Shown here one piece after another: positions 1-63,156 of a stretch of 64,000 bases of DNA. The number at the start of each line of letters is the position of its first letter. Positions within the stretch are counted from its first letter, which is position 1. The notes beneath the pieces were generated by a model. The model saw only the letters and a program-made list of their open reading frames with translations. It did no database searches and was not told the DNA's origin. The position numbers and the translations under genes were made by a program. Origin of the DNA: Leptospirales bacterium. GTDB taxonomy: Bacteria > Spirochaetota > Leptospiria > Leptospirales > Leptonemataceae. The DNA lies in NCBI GenBank assembly GCA_019694655.1, contig JAIBBN010000006.1:1-64000 (forward strand). The letters are read 5' to 3'.

Positions 1-126
1 GTACGCGGGGCCTGCGGCGTTCTGCATCAGGCGCACTTTGGTCTGTATGCCATTCCGACGATCAGCAGCGGTTCGATCTACAATGACGACCTGACAATTC
101 GCGAAGTGAGCGCCTGCCCCTTTTGA
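1..126 (+). CDS. C-terminal end of an unidentified protein (partial)
   Basis: An open frame runs from the first base to a TGA at 124-126 and gives 41 residues ending in REVSACPF. The start lies outside the window. I do not recognise the family from this fragment. It ends 57 bases before the stop of the convergent hydrolase gene. The frame is stop-free and its codon use matches the neighbouring genes, so I take it as a real gene end, but the function is unknown. Confidence 0.5.
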   Translation, partial: VRGACGVLHQAHFGLYAIPTISSGSIYNDDLTIREVSACPF

Positions 127-56628: not shown

Positions 56629-57789
56629 ATGTATCTGATGCACCGCGCCGGACGCAGCCCCCGAACAGCTCTGGAACAGCTGCTCGATGACCCACTGTTC
56701 AATTTCGGCGCTATTGCGGTGACACTGGCTTCAATTCTCAGCCTGGCCTGGCCTATTCTGGCGAAGCTGAGCCTGGAATGGCAAAACTCGATGCGGGTCA
56801 TCGACCGAGCCTTGTTGGGCCTCATTGCCCTGCACATGGTTCTGCAGCTGGTCGCACCTCGCGGCCGACGATATATTCGCGGTCTGCCCTTTCTGGCCGA
56901 TATGCTGGTCTGCCTTCCGCTTTTTGCCTGGCTTGCCGGCCTGGCTCTCGAAACCGCCGGTCTGGTGAATAACACACAAATTGACGCGCTGGCCGGCATC
57001 CCCGGAATGCGTTTGCTCAGCGGTGTTCGCGTACTGCGGCTGCTCAACACAATTCCCTACTTCTATCTGCAGCGGCAGATGGGCCTTGCTGGCGATCGCG
57101 TCCTCCGCTCCGAACTCAAACAGCGGATCATGAACGGCGTCTCCGCGACGCTGGTTTTCCTGGTACTGATCATCGGCGTTCTCTTTGCCCAGGCCACGCG
57201 TGCGGCAACGCGCACGCAGCAAACCCTGCGCATCCAGCAGATTCAATTGCAGGCGGCAAACTACGGCGCGCTGCAGGCCAGACTGCTTTTTCAAAACTCT
57301 GTTCTATCGGTTCGCAGCGCCGCGGGCGGGGCCATCAATGTTGTTCACAACGACAACTGGCCGCCGGATCGGATTGGCGAGGAACTGCTCTACGGCCGCG
57401 ATTACATTCAGCTCGACGGGCAGGCCAACGGGCTACGCCCGGGCGAATCCGTACAAATATTCCTCGCCGACCTGAGGCGGCGCGAAGATGCGCAGGAGCT
57501 TTTCGTAGTTGCAATGGGCTTCATCGCTGCTGCAGCGGTGCTGTTACTTCTGAACCGCTATCTGGATCGCCTGATACTGGCGCCCGCCGAGCGCGCGGTA
57601 CGCGTAAGTCAGTTGAGGCTTAAGGGCGAGGAGATCGAGCGCAGCGGAATTTCACAAGAGCCCTTCACCGAGCTTACGCTCTTGATCAACAGCTACGATC
57701 TACTCTACCAGAAAATGCGGGCGCCCGCGCGAAAGCTGCTTACGCATTCCACTGCAATCGACAACTTGCCTGAATCACCCGCCGAGTAG
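56629..57789 (+). CDS. Membrane sensor-like protein with voltage-sensor-like helices
   Basis: A 386-residue membrane protein. Residues about 20-185 hold four to five hydrophobic segments resembling the S1-S4 bundle of ion channels: a helix ending LIALHMVLQLV, an acidic one, then the Arg-spaced RLLSGVRVLRLLNTIPYF, and a helix starting ELKQRIMNGVSATLVFLVLI. A periplasmic domain (about 190-285) and a last membrane helix lead to a HAMP-like cytoplasmic segment (LAPAERAVRVSQLRLKG). No pore, kinase or cyclase domain is present. Divergent from metF. Its 3' end overlaps the convergent repeat-protein gene by 15 bases. Channel-like origin is an inference. Confidence 0.7.
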   Translation: MYLMHRAGRSPRTALEQLLDDPLFNFGAIAVTLASILSLAWPILAKLSLEWQNSMRVIDRALLGLIALHMVLQLVAPRGRRYIRGLPFLADMLVCLPLFAWLAGLALETAGLVNNTQIDALAGIPGMRLLSGVRVLRLLNTIPYFYLQRQMGLAGDRVLRSELKQRIMNGVSATLVFLVLIIGVLFAQATRAATRTQQTLRIQQIQLQAANYGALQARLLFQNSVLSVRSAAGGAINVVHNDNWPPDRIGEELLYGRDYIQLDGQANGLRPGESVQIFLADLRRREDAQELFVVAMGFIAAAAVLLLLNRYLDRLILAPAERAVRVSQLRLKGEEIERSGISQEPFTELTLLINSYDLLYQKMRAPARKLLTHSTAIDNLPESPAE

Positions 57790-60279
57790 GGCCAGCACCA
57801 GGCCCTCGCCCTTTTTCAATTCGCCCAGGCTGCGGGCCACAACCGCGCCTGCTTTGCCGCCGGCCTGGTCCAGTTTCTCCGCCGCACCGCTGTGGATCGA
57901 AGAGCACAGCAGGTCGCCAGGCGCAACGGGACGCTTCTCGGCATGTACGCGAATTCTGGCTATGCCCGCGACAGCCACATAGAGTCGACCCTGGCTTTCG
58001 CCTTCCGACTGTGCATTCAAGACGATGGCCGGATTTTCAACTATCACGCCAAATATTTGTGAACTCTGGGCATCGCGAGATTTCCGCAGCCGATAGTCAG
58101 CGCCCTGCGCTTCGATGGCTACCAGGTCGCCAGGACCCAGTACGTCCTTTTCTTCCACTCGCGCCAGCAATGCCACAACACTATCGACGCCGCTGAACCG
58201 GGCGCCGCCCTCAACCGCAACCAGGCCTCGCGCCAGCAATGCCAGCTCGCCGCCCTTTACGCCGCGCTCTGGCAAATCGCCGCCAGCAATCAGTGCGTAG
58301 TCGCGATCGCTTGCAAATCTTCCGCCGGCGCCCTCGCGGGAAGCGCCGACCACTCCGGCGCCGTCGGCCCCAAGACCCAGGCCCACCACTCCCGCTTCTT
58401 TTCCGGCGCCCAGGACGCCTTCCCGTTGGCCTTCGCCGGTCAACCCGGCGCCCTCGCCGCTATTGACGCCAGCAATTGGCGCGTGGGCCAGAGGCGCGGC
58501 TTGCACTGCTTTGAATGCCACGCCCGTAGAGCTCGTGAGGCGAATCAAGCCCTGATGGCTGTCAAAATCATGGGCCTTCGGCGCGTAGTCATGGTGGTGT
58601 TCCAGGGGCATCCGGGCGTCGGACAATCTGGGATCGTCAGCTTGAACGGCGCGGCCCTGCAACGCGCTGCCGCTTGCCGCCAGTTCTACTATTCCGGCGC
58701 GCTCCTCAGTTGCGCGGCGCAATCTGGAATCCGAACCCTGTACTACGACGCCTTCGCGCTCCTCTCCGTCTCTGGCCAGCTCGACAATGCCGCGGGTTTC
58801 CGTGGTAGACGGTTGCAGTCGCGGATCGTTGGCCTGCACCGCCGCTTCGGCGGCGTTTTCGCCAGATCGAGCAAAGCGCATAATGCCGGCCTGTTCCACT
58901 GTAGCACGGCGCAATCGATGATCATTTCCCTGCACTGCGGCGTTTGGCGCATCTTCGCCGATTTCGGCGAGGCGCACGATGCCCGGCGCTTTGGTGGATG
59001 CCAGTCGCAGGCGAGAATCGGAGCCCTGCACGACGACCCCCGGTCTATTTTCGCTATCGGCTGCAAGTTCTACAAGACCAGGCTGTTCCTCTGTAGCAAC
59101 GCGCAAACGCGCATCATTGCTCTGCACGGCGTGACCGCCGCGTACTTCTCCGTCTCGCGCCAGCCTTACGATTCCGGGCAGGTCTTCCGTGGCATATTTC
59201 AGACGGCGATCGCTGCCCTGCACCGCAACGCCGCTGCGGTCTTCGCCATCCGATGCCAGCTCAACGATTCCGGTACTCTCCGTACTCGCCTCGCGTAGCC
59301 GGCGGTCAGACCCCTGAACTACAACGCCTTCGCGCACTTCTCCGTCCACTGCGAGGCGAACCATTCCGGAGCGCAGTACAGAGGCATGGTGGATTGGCTC
59401 TGAATATGCTCGGCCCGGACTTTCGAGAGCGTCCGGCGAGGCGTAAAACTCAACCTCGATAATTTGCGAGACGAATTTACCCTCGCGAGTGCGTGCGCCT
59501 TCGGCTATGCTGAGGCGAACATAGCGCATATTGGTTGGCAGGAAGCGCCAGCGATACCAGACAGCAGCCTCCGAGAGGAAACCGTTTTCTTCAATCAAAT
59601 GGTGCCAGGCGATGTTGTCCTCGCTGTATGAAAAACTGAATACTTCAGGGAAAAATGTATCGGCATCATCTTTCGAAAGCAATCTGATTTCGGTCAGGCG
59701 GTTGATGGCGCCAAGATCGAAGAGCAGCGTCTCCTCTTCGCGTTTTGCGCGGAGACTGCTGGACCATCCGTACTCCGGTCTCAGATCAATGAGATTTTCT
59801 TTCACCCAGAGTCGATCCAGTTCGCTGGAAGCCTGTATTTCGACAATGCCGGATATGCTCAGCCGGAACTCGCCGAAGGCGGCCAGATATTTCCCGGTTC
59901 GATTCGCTCTGCCGCACAGGAATAAGAACTTGAGATGGCGCGCCGTAATCAGCGGAAAATGCCAGACAGCTGCTTTGCCGCTGATCAAGCGATAGTCTGC
60001 CTCCTGGAGAATTGGTTCCCACACGCGACCGTCGTTTGAAATTTCAAATCGAAACGTATTTGGGAAAAAATCGAGAAGCTCGCTATCAGCTTCGATGGAA
60101 ATAGAATTGAAAGCCTCAATAGAATCGAAGCTGGCAATGCAGGCGGCAAGACCCGGCGTATCCAATTCCTCTGATCGCCAGCGCAAGATTCGACCAGCGT
60201 TTGCCTTGCTTTCGCCCGGCGCGGACCAGCTCTGAATAGGCAGAACGCGAGGGTGAGAGATTCGGACCAGCTCACTCAC
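57775..60279 (-). CDS. Tail-fibre-like protein with two discoidin-like domains and eight 32-residue repeats
   Basis: An 834-residue protein. Residues about 20-145 and 150-282 look like F5/8-type-C (discoidin) folds: NDGRVWEPILQEADYRL and TEIRLLSKDDADTFFPEV. Residues 305-560 are eight consecutive units of exactly 32 residues of the form GIVELA-DGE-GVAVQGSDRRL, as in phage tail-fibre repeats. Residues 600-690 are Gly-rich (GVLGAGKEAGVVGLGLGADG). The C-terminal 130 residues (GVIVENPAIVL, RPVAPGDLLCSS, GAVVARSLGELKKGEG) resemble self-assembly or chaperone domains at the ends of fibre proteins. No signal peptide or other phage gene is present. It begins one base before the rep stop. Confidence 0.82.
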   Translation of the reverse strand: MSELVRISHPRVLPIQSWSAPGESKANAGRILRWRSEELDTPGLAACIASFDSIEAFNSISIEADSELLDFFPNTFRFEISNDGRVWEPILQEADYRLISGKAAVWHFPLITARHLKFLFLCGRANRTGKYLAAFGEFRLSISGIVEIQASSELDRLWVKENLIDLRPEYGWSSSLRAKREEETLLFDLGAINRLTEIRLLSKDDADTFFPEVFSFSYSEDNIAWHHLIEENGFLSEAAVWYRWRFLPTNMRYVRLSIAEGARTREGKFVSQIIEVEFYASPDALESPGRAYSEPIHHASVLRSGMVRLAVDGEVREGVVVQGSDRRLREASTESTGIVELASDGEDRSGVAVQGSDRRLKYATEDLPGIVRLARDGEVRGGHAVQSNDARLRVATEEQPGLVELAADSENRPGVVVQGSDSRLRLASTKAPGIVRLAEIGEDAPNAAVQGNDHRLRRATVEQAGIMRFARSGENAAEAAVQANDPRLQPSTTETRGIVELARDGEEREGVVVQGSDSRLRRATEERAGIVELAASGSALQGRAVQADDPRLSDARMPLEHHHDYAPKAHDFDSHQGLIRLTSSTGVAFKAVQAAPLAHAPIAGVNSGEGAGLTGEGQREGVLGAGKEAGVVGLGLGADGAGVVGASREGAGGRFASDRDYALIAGGDLPERGVKGGELALLARGLVAVEGGARFSGVDSVVALLARVEEKDVLGPGDLVAIEAQGADYRLRKSRDAQSSQIFGVIVENPAIVLNAQSEGESQGRLYVAVAGIARIRVHAEKRPVAPGDLLCSSIHSGAAEKLDQAGGKAGAVVARSLGELKKGEGLVLALLGG
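58600..59367 (-). repeat. Eight in-frame 96-bp repeats
   Basis: The coding repeats span 768 bases, 8 x 96, with no indel between units. Conserved positions are GIV, LA, GE, VQ and D-RL, while the DNA itself has diverged, so the array is old and selected at protein level. Confidence 0.9.
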
Positions 60280-61125
60280 TCAGTCTACGCTCCGCTCTTG
60301 CCAGTAGTCCTTGCGCGTTTGCATAGCGCCGGTCAACACTGGCTCGAAAAAAATCCGCCCTGCACAGCGTTCCAGCAGAATCTTCAACTGCCCCGGAAGA
60401 TCATCAGCAAACACCAGCAATCCCTCTCGTTCGCCCAGAAATGCGTTGCGAATGAGCGCCATGCTCCCGGCCGAGATTTTGCTGGCGAGCATAGTTTCCA
60501 GATGGGTCCAGGAGCCCGTCCTGGGATTGTCCGCGCGATACAAAATGGATTCAAGATTCGTCGCACTGGGCGGCAGTCCGGCAAGTTCGCATTCGTTGCG
60601 CGCCTGTTGCAGCGCAGCAGCGCCAAAGCGACGACCAAGATGGTCCACCCGACTCTGCTCGCCGCCAGCGCCGCCGGATGGATGATGATTGATAGATATC
60701 TGGATCTGGTTGTACGGCGGGGCGCCAGCAAACACCGGCGAGGGCGCCGCCCCGCCCCGCCGGGGATCGGCGGCATGCTCCGCTGAGGGCGGCCGTGGAG
60801 CCCCCGAGGGGGGCGTTGACTCGCCACGCTGGAACTGGTCAAAGCGAAAACTGTAGTGTGTGGTTCGACGTCCGTTGCCAGTCGTGATGCTGAGCAGGCC
60901 CAATTCCACCAGCTCCTGACGCGCTTTTCGTAAGGTCGATTTCTGCTTAAATCCTGTCAGTTCAAGAAGTCTCCGCCCGCCCGGGAAGACGCTCTTGTAG
61001 CTGCGGTCTGAAAATCGCAGCAAAACGGGATAGAGCGTTCTGGCGGCGCTCGACATCCGTGCCCACAGCCCGCTTTCAATAATTGCAGCTACAAATTTAA
61101 AGTACGGCAGTTCATCGCCAGCCAT
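60280..61125 (-). CDS. Replication-initiator-like protein (rep)
   Basis: A 281-residue protein. The N-terminal 110 residues form a winged-helix-type domain (PYFKFVAAIIESGLWARMSS, KSTLRKARQELVELGLLSIT). A Pro/Ala/Gly-rich linker (about 112-145) follows, then a C-terminal helical domain (GRRFGAAALQQARNECEL, TNLESILYRADN). This layout resembles plasmid or phage initiators with an N-terminal wHTH. The call rests mainly on context: it is the third gene after parA and parB on the same strand, with a control-like gap between. The ATG at 61125 is preceded by GGGGGA, itself part of a competing RNA structure. Could also be a transcription regulator. Confidence 0.65.
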   Translation of the reverse strand: MAGDELPYFKFVAAIIESGLWARMSSAARTLYPVLLRFSDRSYKSVFPGGRRLLELTGFKQKSTLRKARQELVELGLLSITTGNGRRTTHYSFRFDQFQRGESTPPSGAPRPPSAEHAADPRRGGAAPSPVFAGAPPYNQIQISINHHPSGGAGGEQSRVDHLGRRFGAAALQQARNECELAGLPPSATNLESILYRADNPRTGSWTHLETMLASKISAGSMALIRNAFLGEREGLLVFADDLPGQLKILLERCAGRIFFEPVLTGAMQTRKDYWQERSVD

Positions 61126-61132
61126 AACAATT

Positions 61133-61140
61133 CCCCCGGC
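61133..61140 (-). promoter_or_regulatory. rep ribosome-binding site inside a GC-rich pairing arm
   Basis: On the minus strand GCCGGGGG is followed by AATTGTT and the rep ATG. The run of G is the likely Shine-Dalgarno sequence. The same eight bases are exactly complementary to CCCCCGGC in the leader hairpin at 61223-61244 (read on the minus strand), so the site can be exposed or hidden depending on folding. Confidence 0.55.
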
Positions 61141-61160
61141 ATTCGGAGGGCAATTCCAGG

Positions 61161-61189
61161 TTGACAGAAGAAATGCTTGTTTTTAGACT
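61161..61189 (+). promoter_or_regulatory. Sigma70-like promoter of the candidate antisense RNA
   Basis: TTGACA at 61161-61166, a 17-base spacer, and TAGACT at 61184-61189, with four of six matches in the -10 box including both key T's. It points away from rep. Expected start near 61196. Confidence 0.6.
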
Positions 61190-61195
61190 CTTGTT

Positions 61196-61251
61196 GGATC
61201 AACATTTCCCTGTGGAAGCCCCGCCCCCGGTTGCCGCCGGGGGCTTTTTTT
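61196..61251 (+). ncRNA. Candidate counter-transcribed RNA controlling rep
   Basis: A transcript from the promoter at 61161-61189 to the terminator would be about 56 nt and antisense to the leader of rep. It would contain little beyond a small 5' region and a terminator hairpin, the form of the short antisense RNAs in repABC replicons. No protein is encoded. Existence is inferred from promoter and terminator spacing. Confidence 0.5.
61223..61251 (+). terminator. Intrinsic terminator in the parB-rep gap (plus strand)
   Basis: GCCCCCGG, loop TTGCCG, CCGGGGGC gives a perfect 8-bp stem, followed by seven T. It works only for plus-strand transcription; no plus-strand protein gene lies upstream, which is why a short RNA is proposed. 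Confidence 0.85.
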
Positions 61252-61282
61252 GCCTGGTTTCGATCAGTTTGATTTGAATCGA

Positions 61283-61300
61283 CCCCGGCTATGACCGGGG
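61283..61300. other. Second GC hairpin in the parB-rep gap
   Basis: CCCCGG, loop CTATGA, CCGGGG. It shares the CCCCGG/CCGGGG core with the terminator hairpin and could exchange pairing with it in the rep leader mRNA. Confidence 0.45.
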
Positions 61301-61500
61301 CTGTCGGAGGGCGTTGTAGCTGAGCTTGCCGGCTCAGGCGCTTCCATGTTGGACTAAGCCAAGAGGAAACGCAACAGCGCCCCTCTTCTTGTCCCGGATA
61401 TCCAGATTATGTCTCCTGAGCTTTCCGGGTCAACGCTTTTTGGAAGCGCGCCTGCAGTTCGGCCAGTTCAAAATAAATTCAGGCATATCAATATTTGATT

Positions 61501-62370
61501 CTAGGGGCGCGCCGCGCCGCCCAGTAATTCGGCCCAGGATTTCTTGAGCCTGTCGCGCAAACGACGGGCCTCATCGCTGGAGCGACATATCACCAGGAGC
61601 TCGTTTTCGCGCAGTTCGACTCGCGGAGCAACGATAGCGTCGACCGCCTGGCTCGCCTTTGGTTTTCCAGTCGCGGGACTGGCTTTGCCCTGGGCAGCCC
61701 CCCCCTCCCCCGTTGCGGGAGCTGGCTGCAGAAACTCCCGAGCGTCCCGTACCGTCTTGATTGCGCCGCTGCGATAGGCCGCGAGGAACTCTGGAAGCTG
61801 CTGCTTGCGGTAGGCCTGGACGGCCTGGATCAGCAGGTTGCGACTATCAATGCCTGCGCCTACGCATTGCTCCAGGCTTTCCGTCGGCAGCTGCGCGATG
61901 CCAAGAATTTCGGTTACATAGTTGCGCGACTTGCCAACCAGTTCGGCCAGGCTTTGATCGGAAAGGTCTTCCTGCTTCTTGAGCCGAAGCAGCGCTTGGG
62001 CCTCTTCGCCGGGACTCAGGTTTTCCCGCTGCAAATTCTCGACGATGGCAATTCGCCAGTAGTCGCGTTCTTCGCGCGAGATGATCCGGCACTCCGCCTC
62101 CTGTCTGCCCAGCTTCTTCAAGGCGTGGTAGCGTCGTTCTCCGGCGATGATGCGAAAACCTTCTCCGTCGCGCGTCACGACCAGCGGTGAGAGCAAACCC
62201 TCGCGCTTGATGCTCTCCGCCAGTTCGTCAATGTTGATCGTTCGCTGCTGGCGCGGCTGCTCGCTGGAGGGGCGCAGGCGATTGAGCTTAACCGACTGGA
62301 TGACGCCATCCAGGGTCTCGCGGCGGTAAATATCAGTCAGCGCCCCAAGGCGTTTAGTCTTTGAGTTCAT
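61501..62370 (-). CDS. parB: ParB-family partition protein
   Basis: A 289-residue ParB/Spo0J-type protein. The N-terminal domain has IDELAESIKREGLLSPLVV and IIAGERRYHALKKL, the latter holding the GERR motif of CTP-binding ParB proteins. ENLQRENLSPGEEAQALLRL and the helix-turn-helix (SLAELVGKSRNYVTEIL) bind parS DNA. The C-terminal part is an Ala/Pro-rich linker and a short dimerisation end. ATG 62370 overlaps parA by 17 bases, so the two are co-translated. Length and sequence suit plasmid or chromid ParB. Confidence 0.93.
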   Translation of the reverse strand: MNSKTKRLGALTDIYRRETLDGVIQSVKLNRLRPSSEQPRQQRTINIDELAESIKREGLLSPLVVTRDGEGFRIIAGERRYHALKKLGRQEAECRIISREERDYWRIAIVENLQRENLSPGEEAQALLRLKKQEDLSDQSLAELVGKSRNYVTEILGIAQLPTESLEQCVGAGIDSRNLLIQAVQAYRKQQLPEFLAAYRSGAIKTVRDAREFLQPAPATGEGGAAQGKASPATGKPKASQAVDAIVAPRVELRENELLVICRSSDEARRLRDRLKKSWAELLGGAARP

Positions 62371-63112
62371 GAAGCAGCTCCGCTATGAAAGAGTCGTACT
62401 CCTGGGCCTGTTTGGAATCCGGCGCATAGTCAAAGATTGATTGGCGTGCGACATGACTTTCCCCCACCGCCACGCCCTCGCTGATGGCGGCGTCAAAAAC
62501 CGTGAAATACTGGGAGAGTACCGGCAGGATCGTCTTGTTCAATACGGTCTTGGGTTTGAGTTGTGTGACCAGCGCGCCGGCCACCTGGAGCTCGGGGTTG
62601 ATTCGCCGCTTGATGGAATTGATGGTGCCTTGCAAACCGGTCATGCCATCGACGGAGAATTTTTCAGCCTGTGCAGGAATGACCACATGCGTGGCGGCGC
62701 TGAGCGCATTGATCGTAAAAATGGAAAGTGAAGGCGGGCAGTCGATAACGACCATCTCAAAGCCCTTAAGAGTCTGCAGGGCGTCGCGGACAACGTAGGG
62801 CGCATCAACATTCAACGCAAAACTCTCCACCTCGGCCAGGGTAATGCGCGAGGGCGCGAGGCTGAGATTTGGGCGTCCGGTTTCGACAATGACCTCCGCC
62901 AGCGGAGTCTGGCTGTTGAACACATCGTACATTGATTTTTCCAGGCTGTCAGGGGGGAGAAAAATTCCCGTACTGTTTGCCTGGGGGTCGAGGTCCATCA
63001 ACAGGGTTGGAATATTGCGACGCGCCAGTCCGAAGGCCAGGTTCAGGGCGGTCGTAGTCTTGCCTTCGCCTCCCTTCTGGTTTGCTACCGCGATTATGTA
63101 GGTCTTTTTCAT
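62354..63112 (-). CDS. parA: ParA-family partition ATPase
   Basis: A 252-residue ATPase that positions replicons with ParB. ATG 63112 leads straight to YIIAVANQKGGEGKTTTALN, with the deviant Walker A KGGxGKTT; DLDPQANST and VIDCPPSLSIFTINAL are the Walker A' and B regions. The frame is open for 35 more codons upstream from a TTG, but these are not ParA-like. No N-terminal DNA-binding helix-turn-helix, as in chromosomal or type Ib ParA proteins. A TTGACA box and two palindromes lie upstream. Confidence 0.95.
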   Translation of the reverse strand: MKKTYIIAVANQKGGEGKTTTALNLAFGLARRNIPTLLMDLDPQANSTGIFLPPDSLEKSMYDVFNSQTPLAEVIVETGRPNLSLAPSRITLAEVESFALNVDAPYVVRDALQTLKGFEMVVIDCPPSLSIFTINALSAATHVVIPAQAEKFSVDGMTGLQGTINSIKRRINPELQVAGALVTQLKPKTVLNKTILPVLSQYFTVFDAAISEGVAVGESHVARQSIFDYAPDSKQAQEYDSFIAELLHELKD

Positions 63113-63124
63113 TGGGCCCAGGAA

Positions 63125-63156
63125 TGTGACATAATATAGGAAGCCATCGCTGTCAA
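63125..63156 (-). promoter_or_regulatory. Possible promoter of the parA-parB(-rep) operon
   Basis: On the minus strand TTGACA is at 63156-63151, followed by an AT-rich TATATTATGT stretch at the -10 distance. The spacing to the best TATATT is short, so only the -35 box is convincing. Confidence 0.35.

Follow-up and report, generated by a model that had tools for sequence, protein, structure and literature searches.

A putative counter-transcribed RNA opposite the rep leader of chromosome-II-type replicons in the Leptospira class

Introduction

According to a review from 2018, secondary chromosomes fall into two major types with regard to replication control, namely iteron and repABC; the review is silent on control in Leptospira (PMC6090056). 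In the repABC plasmids and chromids of alphaproteobacteria, the counter-transcribed RNA (ctRNA; RepE, IncA or Inc-alpha) is 50–59 nt long, is encoded on the opposite strand in the gap between repB and repC, and ends in an intrinsic terminator. The leader that it targets has two alternative folds, and binding of the RNA closes the initiator gene (PMC6090056, PMC10194956). For L. biflexa, the origin of chromosome II has been described as a partition operon with a putative rep gene downstream (PMC2229662). We found no antisense RNA controlling Leptospira chromosome II in the literature searched, although published sRNA tables may list one. The locus described here has the same general layout as repABC replicons, with a different type of initiator, and lies in a stretch of 64,000 nt (hereafter the window) corresponding to bases 1–64,000 of a 173,359-bp contig. 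The source genome (3.9 Mb) belongs to the Leptospirales, its closest named relatives being Leptospiraceae bacteria.

Results and discussion

A replication and partition locus of the chromosome-II type

The minus strand of the window carries, in this order, parA, parB, a gap, rep, a gene for a discoidin-domain protein and a metF-like gene. The features of the locus needed here are the following:

60280–61125, minus strand: rep, coding for a 281-aa winged-helix replication initiation protein (HTH_36 match)
61406–61433, minus strand: rep promoter as predicted, TTGACC-16-CATAAT; the resulting leader, about 275 nt long, includes the entire antisense target
61501–62370, minus strand: parB
62354–63112, minus strand: parA, with its start at an internal ATG

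The same gene order, from parA through to metF, is found on chromosome II of L. interrogans, whose HTH rep shares 38% sequence identity with that of the window over the matched part, and the parA-parB-rep-discoidin portion is common to the window and the Turneriella plasmid pTURPA.01. In the source genome, as well as in two relatives assembled into few contigs (G005 and G006, with rep contigs of 250 and 184 kb), dnaA lies on contigs other than the one carrying rep. The window thus has the complete block on a contig separate from dnaA, the arrangement by which we recognized a chromosome-II replicon of Leptospira. Considering this gene order and the presence of dnaA on other contigs, the par-rep block most probably serves a chromosome-II-type replicon as its module for replication and partition. 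In one genome (G022), dnaA and the rep/antisense module are located on a single 1.41-Mb contig (L046 and L064, G022:C2), a finding that points to fusion of the second chromosome with the main one or else to an assembly error.

The window Rep matches a phage family of “replication initiation proteins” (phrog_270, E = 2.4e-9), and its L. interrogans homolog matches phrog_2880 (E = 1.6e-24). The structure model of Rep is modest (mean pLDDT 65.5), and the fold search returned winged-helix matches only, none of them at E ≤ 0.001. A resemblance of the C-terminus to domain I of DnaA, suspected by eye, was unsupported in profile comparison. Of 38 loci, 14 have a match to the rep promoter (TTGAC...GACATAAT). 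The motif GACATAA(T)/TTATGTC, located in the window at 61406–61413 (minus) and 63125–63135 (plus) and upstream of nearly all rep loci, overlaps the –10 box of the rep promoter as predicted here and, in the opposite orientation, the –10 box that relatives have in their antisense promoter; a shared operator is possible. The large discoidin (F5/8-type) protein, encoded at 57775–60279 (minus), contains repeated motifs of the type GIVxLAxxGExxxxxAVQxxDxRL. Its gene is the neighbour of rep not only in the window but also in L. interrogans and Turneriella.

A predicted antisense RNA gene in the parB-rep gap

A putative RNA gene was located in the gap between parB and rep, opposite the rep leader (61161–61251, plus strand), with the following parts:

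61161–61189, plus strand: antisense promoter, with TTGACA at 61161–61166, a 17-nt spacer and TAGACT at 61184–61189 (10 of 12 consensus matches)
61196–61251, plus strand: putative antisense (counter-transcribed) RNA, about 56 nt long, its start deduced from the promoter
61205–61218, plus strand: small 5' stem-loop, UUUCC-CUGU-GGAAG, equivalent to the UUCC-loop-GGAA of relatives
61223–61251, plus strand: intrinsic terminator, comprising a stem-loop (61223–61244) whose stem is kept by compensatory changes, and a tail of seven T (61245–61251)

A previous reading of this DNA from the sequence alone had named the promoter, the terminator stem, the seven T and an RNA of about 56 nt, all of which were recovered where it had placed them. 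The terminator, GCCCCCGG-TTGCCG-CCGGGGGC, is GC-rich. With six extra bases at its 5' end, the RNA folds at –25.4 kcal/mol, compared with –19.3 for its shuffles (z = –2.2). The 5' stem-loop is missing from the minimum-energy fold when the RNA is cut exactly at 61196, and forms once the RNA is extended by a few bases on the 5' side. Searching Rfam at this site, with the gathering score as well as with a lax E-value, gave nothing credible, the best match being NsiR1 (E = 0.34). At 61280–61307, immediately upstream of the antisense gene, the rep leader contains another GC-rich inverted repeat, GACCCCGGCTATGACCGGGGCTGTC, which the predicted rep transcript would include.

Conservation across the class

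Homologs of rep were found in 36 of the 48 genomes of the class. The antisense promoter and terminator occur in register in 24 of 38 rep leaders (0.05 expected from dinucleotide shuffles), and the same layout is found at none of the 38 loci on the rep strand, used as control, which bears out the earlier proposal of a promoter-terminator unit at this place. Many of the leaders outside these 24 also have the element, their promoter or stem missing the strict rule: a promoter of the form TTGAC-15..18-nAnnnT is present on the opposite strand, 32–72 nt upstream of rep, in most homologs. The predicted RNAs are mostly 45–70 nt long across the class and share the UUCC-loop-GGAA stem and a terminator; in most families they begin with a UCCAACA-like sequence which, together with the small stem-loop, is kept from Turneriella to Leptospira. 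In L. interrogans, ATTATGTC-TCATCCAACA is the conserved block of the chromosome-II par-rep gap. The terminator stems retain their pairing in spite of complete sequence replacement, with 3–6 pair types at each of the eight positions nearest the base. Since MAFFT/RNAalifold misaligned these variable stems and found only 4 pairs, they were compared from the base up.

A profile of the element (R1), built from 16 loci, was searched in the 48 genomes. It matches window positions 61161–61253 at E = 1e-12, the window being part of the training set. A single match per genome was obtained in 23 of the 48 genomes, 22 of which are immediately upstream of rep and antisense to it; 15 of the 23 are training loci, 5 are from training genera, and the remaining ones come from genera outside the training (G031, G018 and G037). 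G031 is also the exception with regard to position (L062:662–4501), as it has kept parA, parB and the RNA element and rep is missing; the element there adjoins the discoidin gene. No Rfam family matched the element, and no relatives were found in the viral contigs searched.

A putative three-arm switch in the rep leader

Three arms can be delineated on the rep mRNA:

61208–61222, minus strand: arm A, GGGGCUUCCACAGGG, the complement of part of the antisense RNA and a possible pairing partner of arm B
61143–61160, minus strand: arm B, CCUGGAAUUGCCCUCCGA, pairing with arm A (open) or with the ribosome-binding site (closed)
61131–61138, minus strand: arm C, the rep ribosome-binding site (RBS), CGGGGGAA

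On the rep strand, arm A directly follows the hairpin on its 3' side and is covered by the RNA, and arm B sits between the antisense –35 box and the RBS. Simple unconstrained accessibility of the RBS differs little (0.31 free, 0.27 bound), and pair-specific tests were therefore used, in which the duplex energy of cognate arms was compared with that of shuffled and mixed-genus partners in 24 genera. With shuffles preserving base composition only, genera sharing ancestry and energies taken from isolated-strand folding, the A-B pairing has a mean z of –1.16 (p = 8e-4; cognate over mixed, p = 0.02) and the B-C pairing a mean z of –1.10 (p = 7e-4; cognate over mixed, p = 0.012). When the two pairings are required to compete for the same part of arm B, the Fisher p is about 4.5e-6 over the 24 genera, the score being below 0.05 in 7 of the 24 and the competition stronger inside the family (1e-5) than outside (0.026). 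Clear cases are L023 (A CGAAGGGUCC, B GGACCCUUCG, C CGAAGGGG), L. interrogans (A UCCCGAAGG, B UCUUCGGGA) and L017 (A GGGGCUUCC, B GGAAGCCUCUCAUC, C GAUGAGGUGGC), where the pairing is found despite unrelated sequences. Turneriella-like genera show little or no B-C pairing, and the switch may therefore be less than universal. Across 37 loci, 15 leaders close upon RNA binding and 2 open (p = 3e-4, uncorrected for relatedness). Two mutually exclusive leader pairings, one freeing and the other sequestering the RBS, are thus seen across genera.

The leader of the window, whose sequence is GC-rich, was folded with and without the RNA, a check that the sequence-only reading had proposed. With the leader hairpin kept, as it should form first during transcription, binding of the RNA lowers the unpaired fraction of the RBS from 0.47 to 0.10 and raises the pairing of the RBS with arm B from 0.17 to 0.88. 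Left unconstrained, the RBS is mostly paired in both states (unpaired 0.15 and 0.12). As the three-arm competition in the window alone has p = 0.23, the case for the switch is carried by the family. Position, conservation, compensation within the terminator and the A-B/B-C competition across genera all emerge from the sequence analysis, and together they point to a counter-transcribed RNA gene that probably limits translation of rep, the initiator of a chromosome-II-type replicon.

The mechanism that we infer, from transcription and its start site to the translational step and the effect on copy number, would be as follows. The RNA would be transcribed from the promoter at 61161 (plus strand), end at the T-run at 61251 and be fully complementary to the rep leader. 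When it is absent, arm A (61222–61208) would pair with arm B (61160–61146) in a large stem, leaving the RBS free. When the RNA covers arm A, the freed arm B would fold onto the RBS (61139–61132) and switch off translation of rep. Because the level of the RNA would follow copy number, the latter would be held low and the leader would act as an incompatibility determinant. The RNA would then most likely limit how often the second chromosome copies. In L. interrogans plasmids with distantly related reps, vectors carrying rep only do replicate, and a host in which the same rep is already resident excludes them; for lcp1–3, hosts carrying the same rep were not transformed by the rep vectors (PMC4338851). 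This exclusion fits a determinant in or near rep, although neither of the two plasmids that we examined, lcp2 and lcp3, has this RNA.

Other readings of the conserved leader

The RNA could also act by transcription attenuation, whereby arm B, once released, would form an intrinsic terminator ahead of rep. The repABC ctRNA model includes such a leader terminator (PMC6090056), and a U-run directly follows arm B in several relatives, among them L003 (UGGAAAAC-UUUUUU), L005 (GAAGCCCC-UUUUU) and L045 (CUUUGGGAU-UUUUU), so that attenuation is possible in some of them. In L011–L017, however, the U-run comes before the arm, and the window has none between arm B and the start codon, the sole candidate on the rep strand there (61149–61133) being followed by AATTGTTATG. 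Translation rather than transcription is therefore the likely step in the window, and we regard attenuation as an unlikely account of the element, if the foremost of the alternatives.

It is improbable that the conserved blocks are DNA sites for Rep, ParA or ParB (e.g. the GACATAAT motif), with the RNA being incidental. The occurrence of GACATAA/TTATGTC at the rep and antisense promoters of nearly all loci, and also upstream of parA in the window, would agree with binding sites, but a model based on protein sites would predict neither the survival of T-tailed terminator stems through complete sequence replacement nor that of the A-B-C pairing through sequence change.

The two-state leader was originally described with other arms, in that the antisense RNA would control an 8-bp pairing between an arm of the terminator and the RBS. 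This pairing does exist, between CCCCCGGC (61243–61236) and GCCGGGGG (61140–61133), which occupies the RBS position on the rep strand, the terminator arm being shifted by one base from the version first given. When the window leader is folded without constraint, this pairing prevails in the minimum-energy structure, and its z in the window is –3.2. Over the 24 genera, though, the mean z is only –0.43 and cognate arms pair no better than mixed ones (p = 0.66). The pairing would further have to open a local hairpin, which should arise earlier during transcription, and it would leave the RBS closed when the RNA is absent. We consider it very unlikely to be the switch. Co-variation of the arms in relatives had been named as the test of that proposal, and it is the lack of it that tells against this choice of arms; an antisense RNA with a two-state rep leader, conserved throughout the class, is unaffected by it. 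The three-arm A/B/C switch appears the better supported of the two versions on the comparative evidence. Finally, terminators are common and the promoter matches consensus at only 10 of 12 positions, but the excess of in-register pairs over the 0.05 expected and the single profile match per genome, always at the par-rep site, leave next to no probability that the hairpin is a mere intergenic terminator next to a chance promoter.

Comparison with known systems

The plasmid pMV158 replicates by the rolling-circle mechanism, has an additional transcriptional repressor (CopG), and its leader architecture is unlike that of the Leptospira-class element. The likeness lies in its RNAII which, like similar antisense RNAs of small plasmids, is short and inhibits translation of an initiator gene (PMC4485353).

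Leptospira plasmids and the leptophage LE1 have parAB-rep replicons that are similar in gene order, in having an HTH rep and in the length of the gap of about 400 nt (PMC2229662, PMC4338851). They differ in that this gap holds a different conserved sequence, and no antisense terminator or RNA was found in the plasmid and LE1-type gaps, including those of lcp2 and lcp3. The gap sequence itself (L055:1611–2024, L056:1401–1813, L057:1631–2020, L058:1219–1630, L059:1636–2044, L060:1298–1690 and L061:1196–1651) is strongly conserved, with blocks such as gacataactaag, gaatcgaggacc, agagtagggtaa and ttaccgtgc, and has no Rfam match; it could represent a structured RNA, or else an origin.

The repABC ctRNA of rhizobia and Agrobacterium acts much as we propose for the Leptospira-class RNA, to which it is unrelated. 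Both systems have the order parA-parB-ctRNA-rep, with an RNA on the opposite strand between parB and the initiator gene, and the predicted size of the RNA (56 nt in the window, mostly 45–70 nt in the class) and its intrinsic terminator are also alike. On the other hand, the ctRNA covariance model of Rfam, RF00489, scored above its cut-off in none of the 48 genomes of the class and did not appear among the matches at the site up to E = 10, and the repABC initiator RepC (PF03428) was found in none of the 48, the initiator here being an HTH_36 protein. The system of the window is moreover spirochaetal, its rep has a predicted promoter of its own, and its leader has no terminator. Judged from these comparisons, the Leptospira-class system is one that would work like the repABC ctRNA and is not a member of that family.

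The element offers a concrete and testable candidate for the controller of Leptospira chromosome II, and a predicted incompatibility determinant that would be useful in vector design. It also places a parA-parB-antisense RNA-rep layout outside the alphaproteobacteria, with a different initiator. On balance, we lean towards regarding chromosome II of the Leptospira class as a third kind of secondary chromosome, in which an antisense RNA and leader switch would have arisen independently of repABC alongside an unrelated, phage-type initiator, the RNA predating the split between Leptospira and Turneriella.
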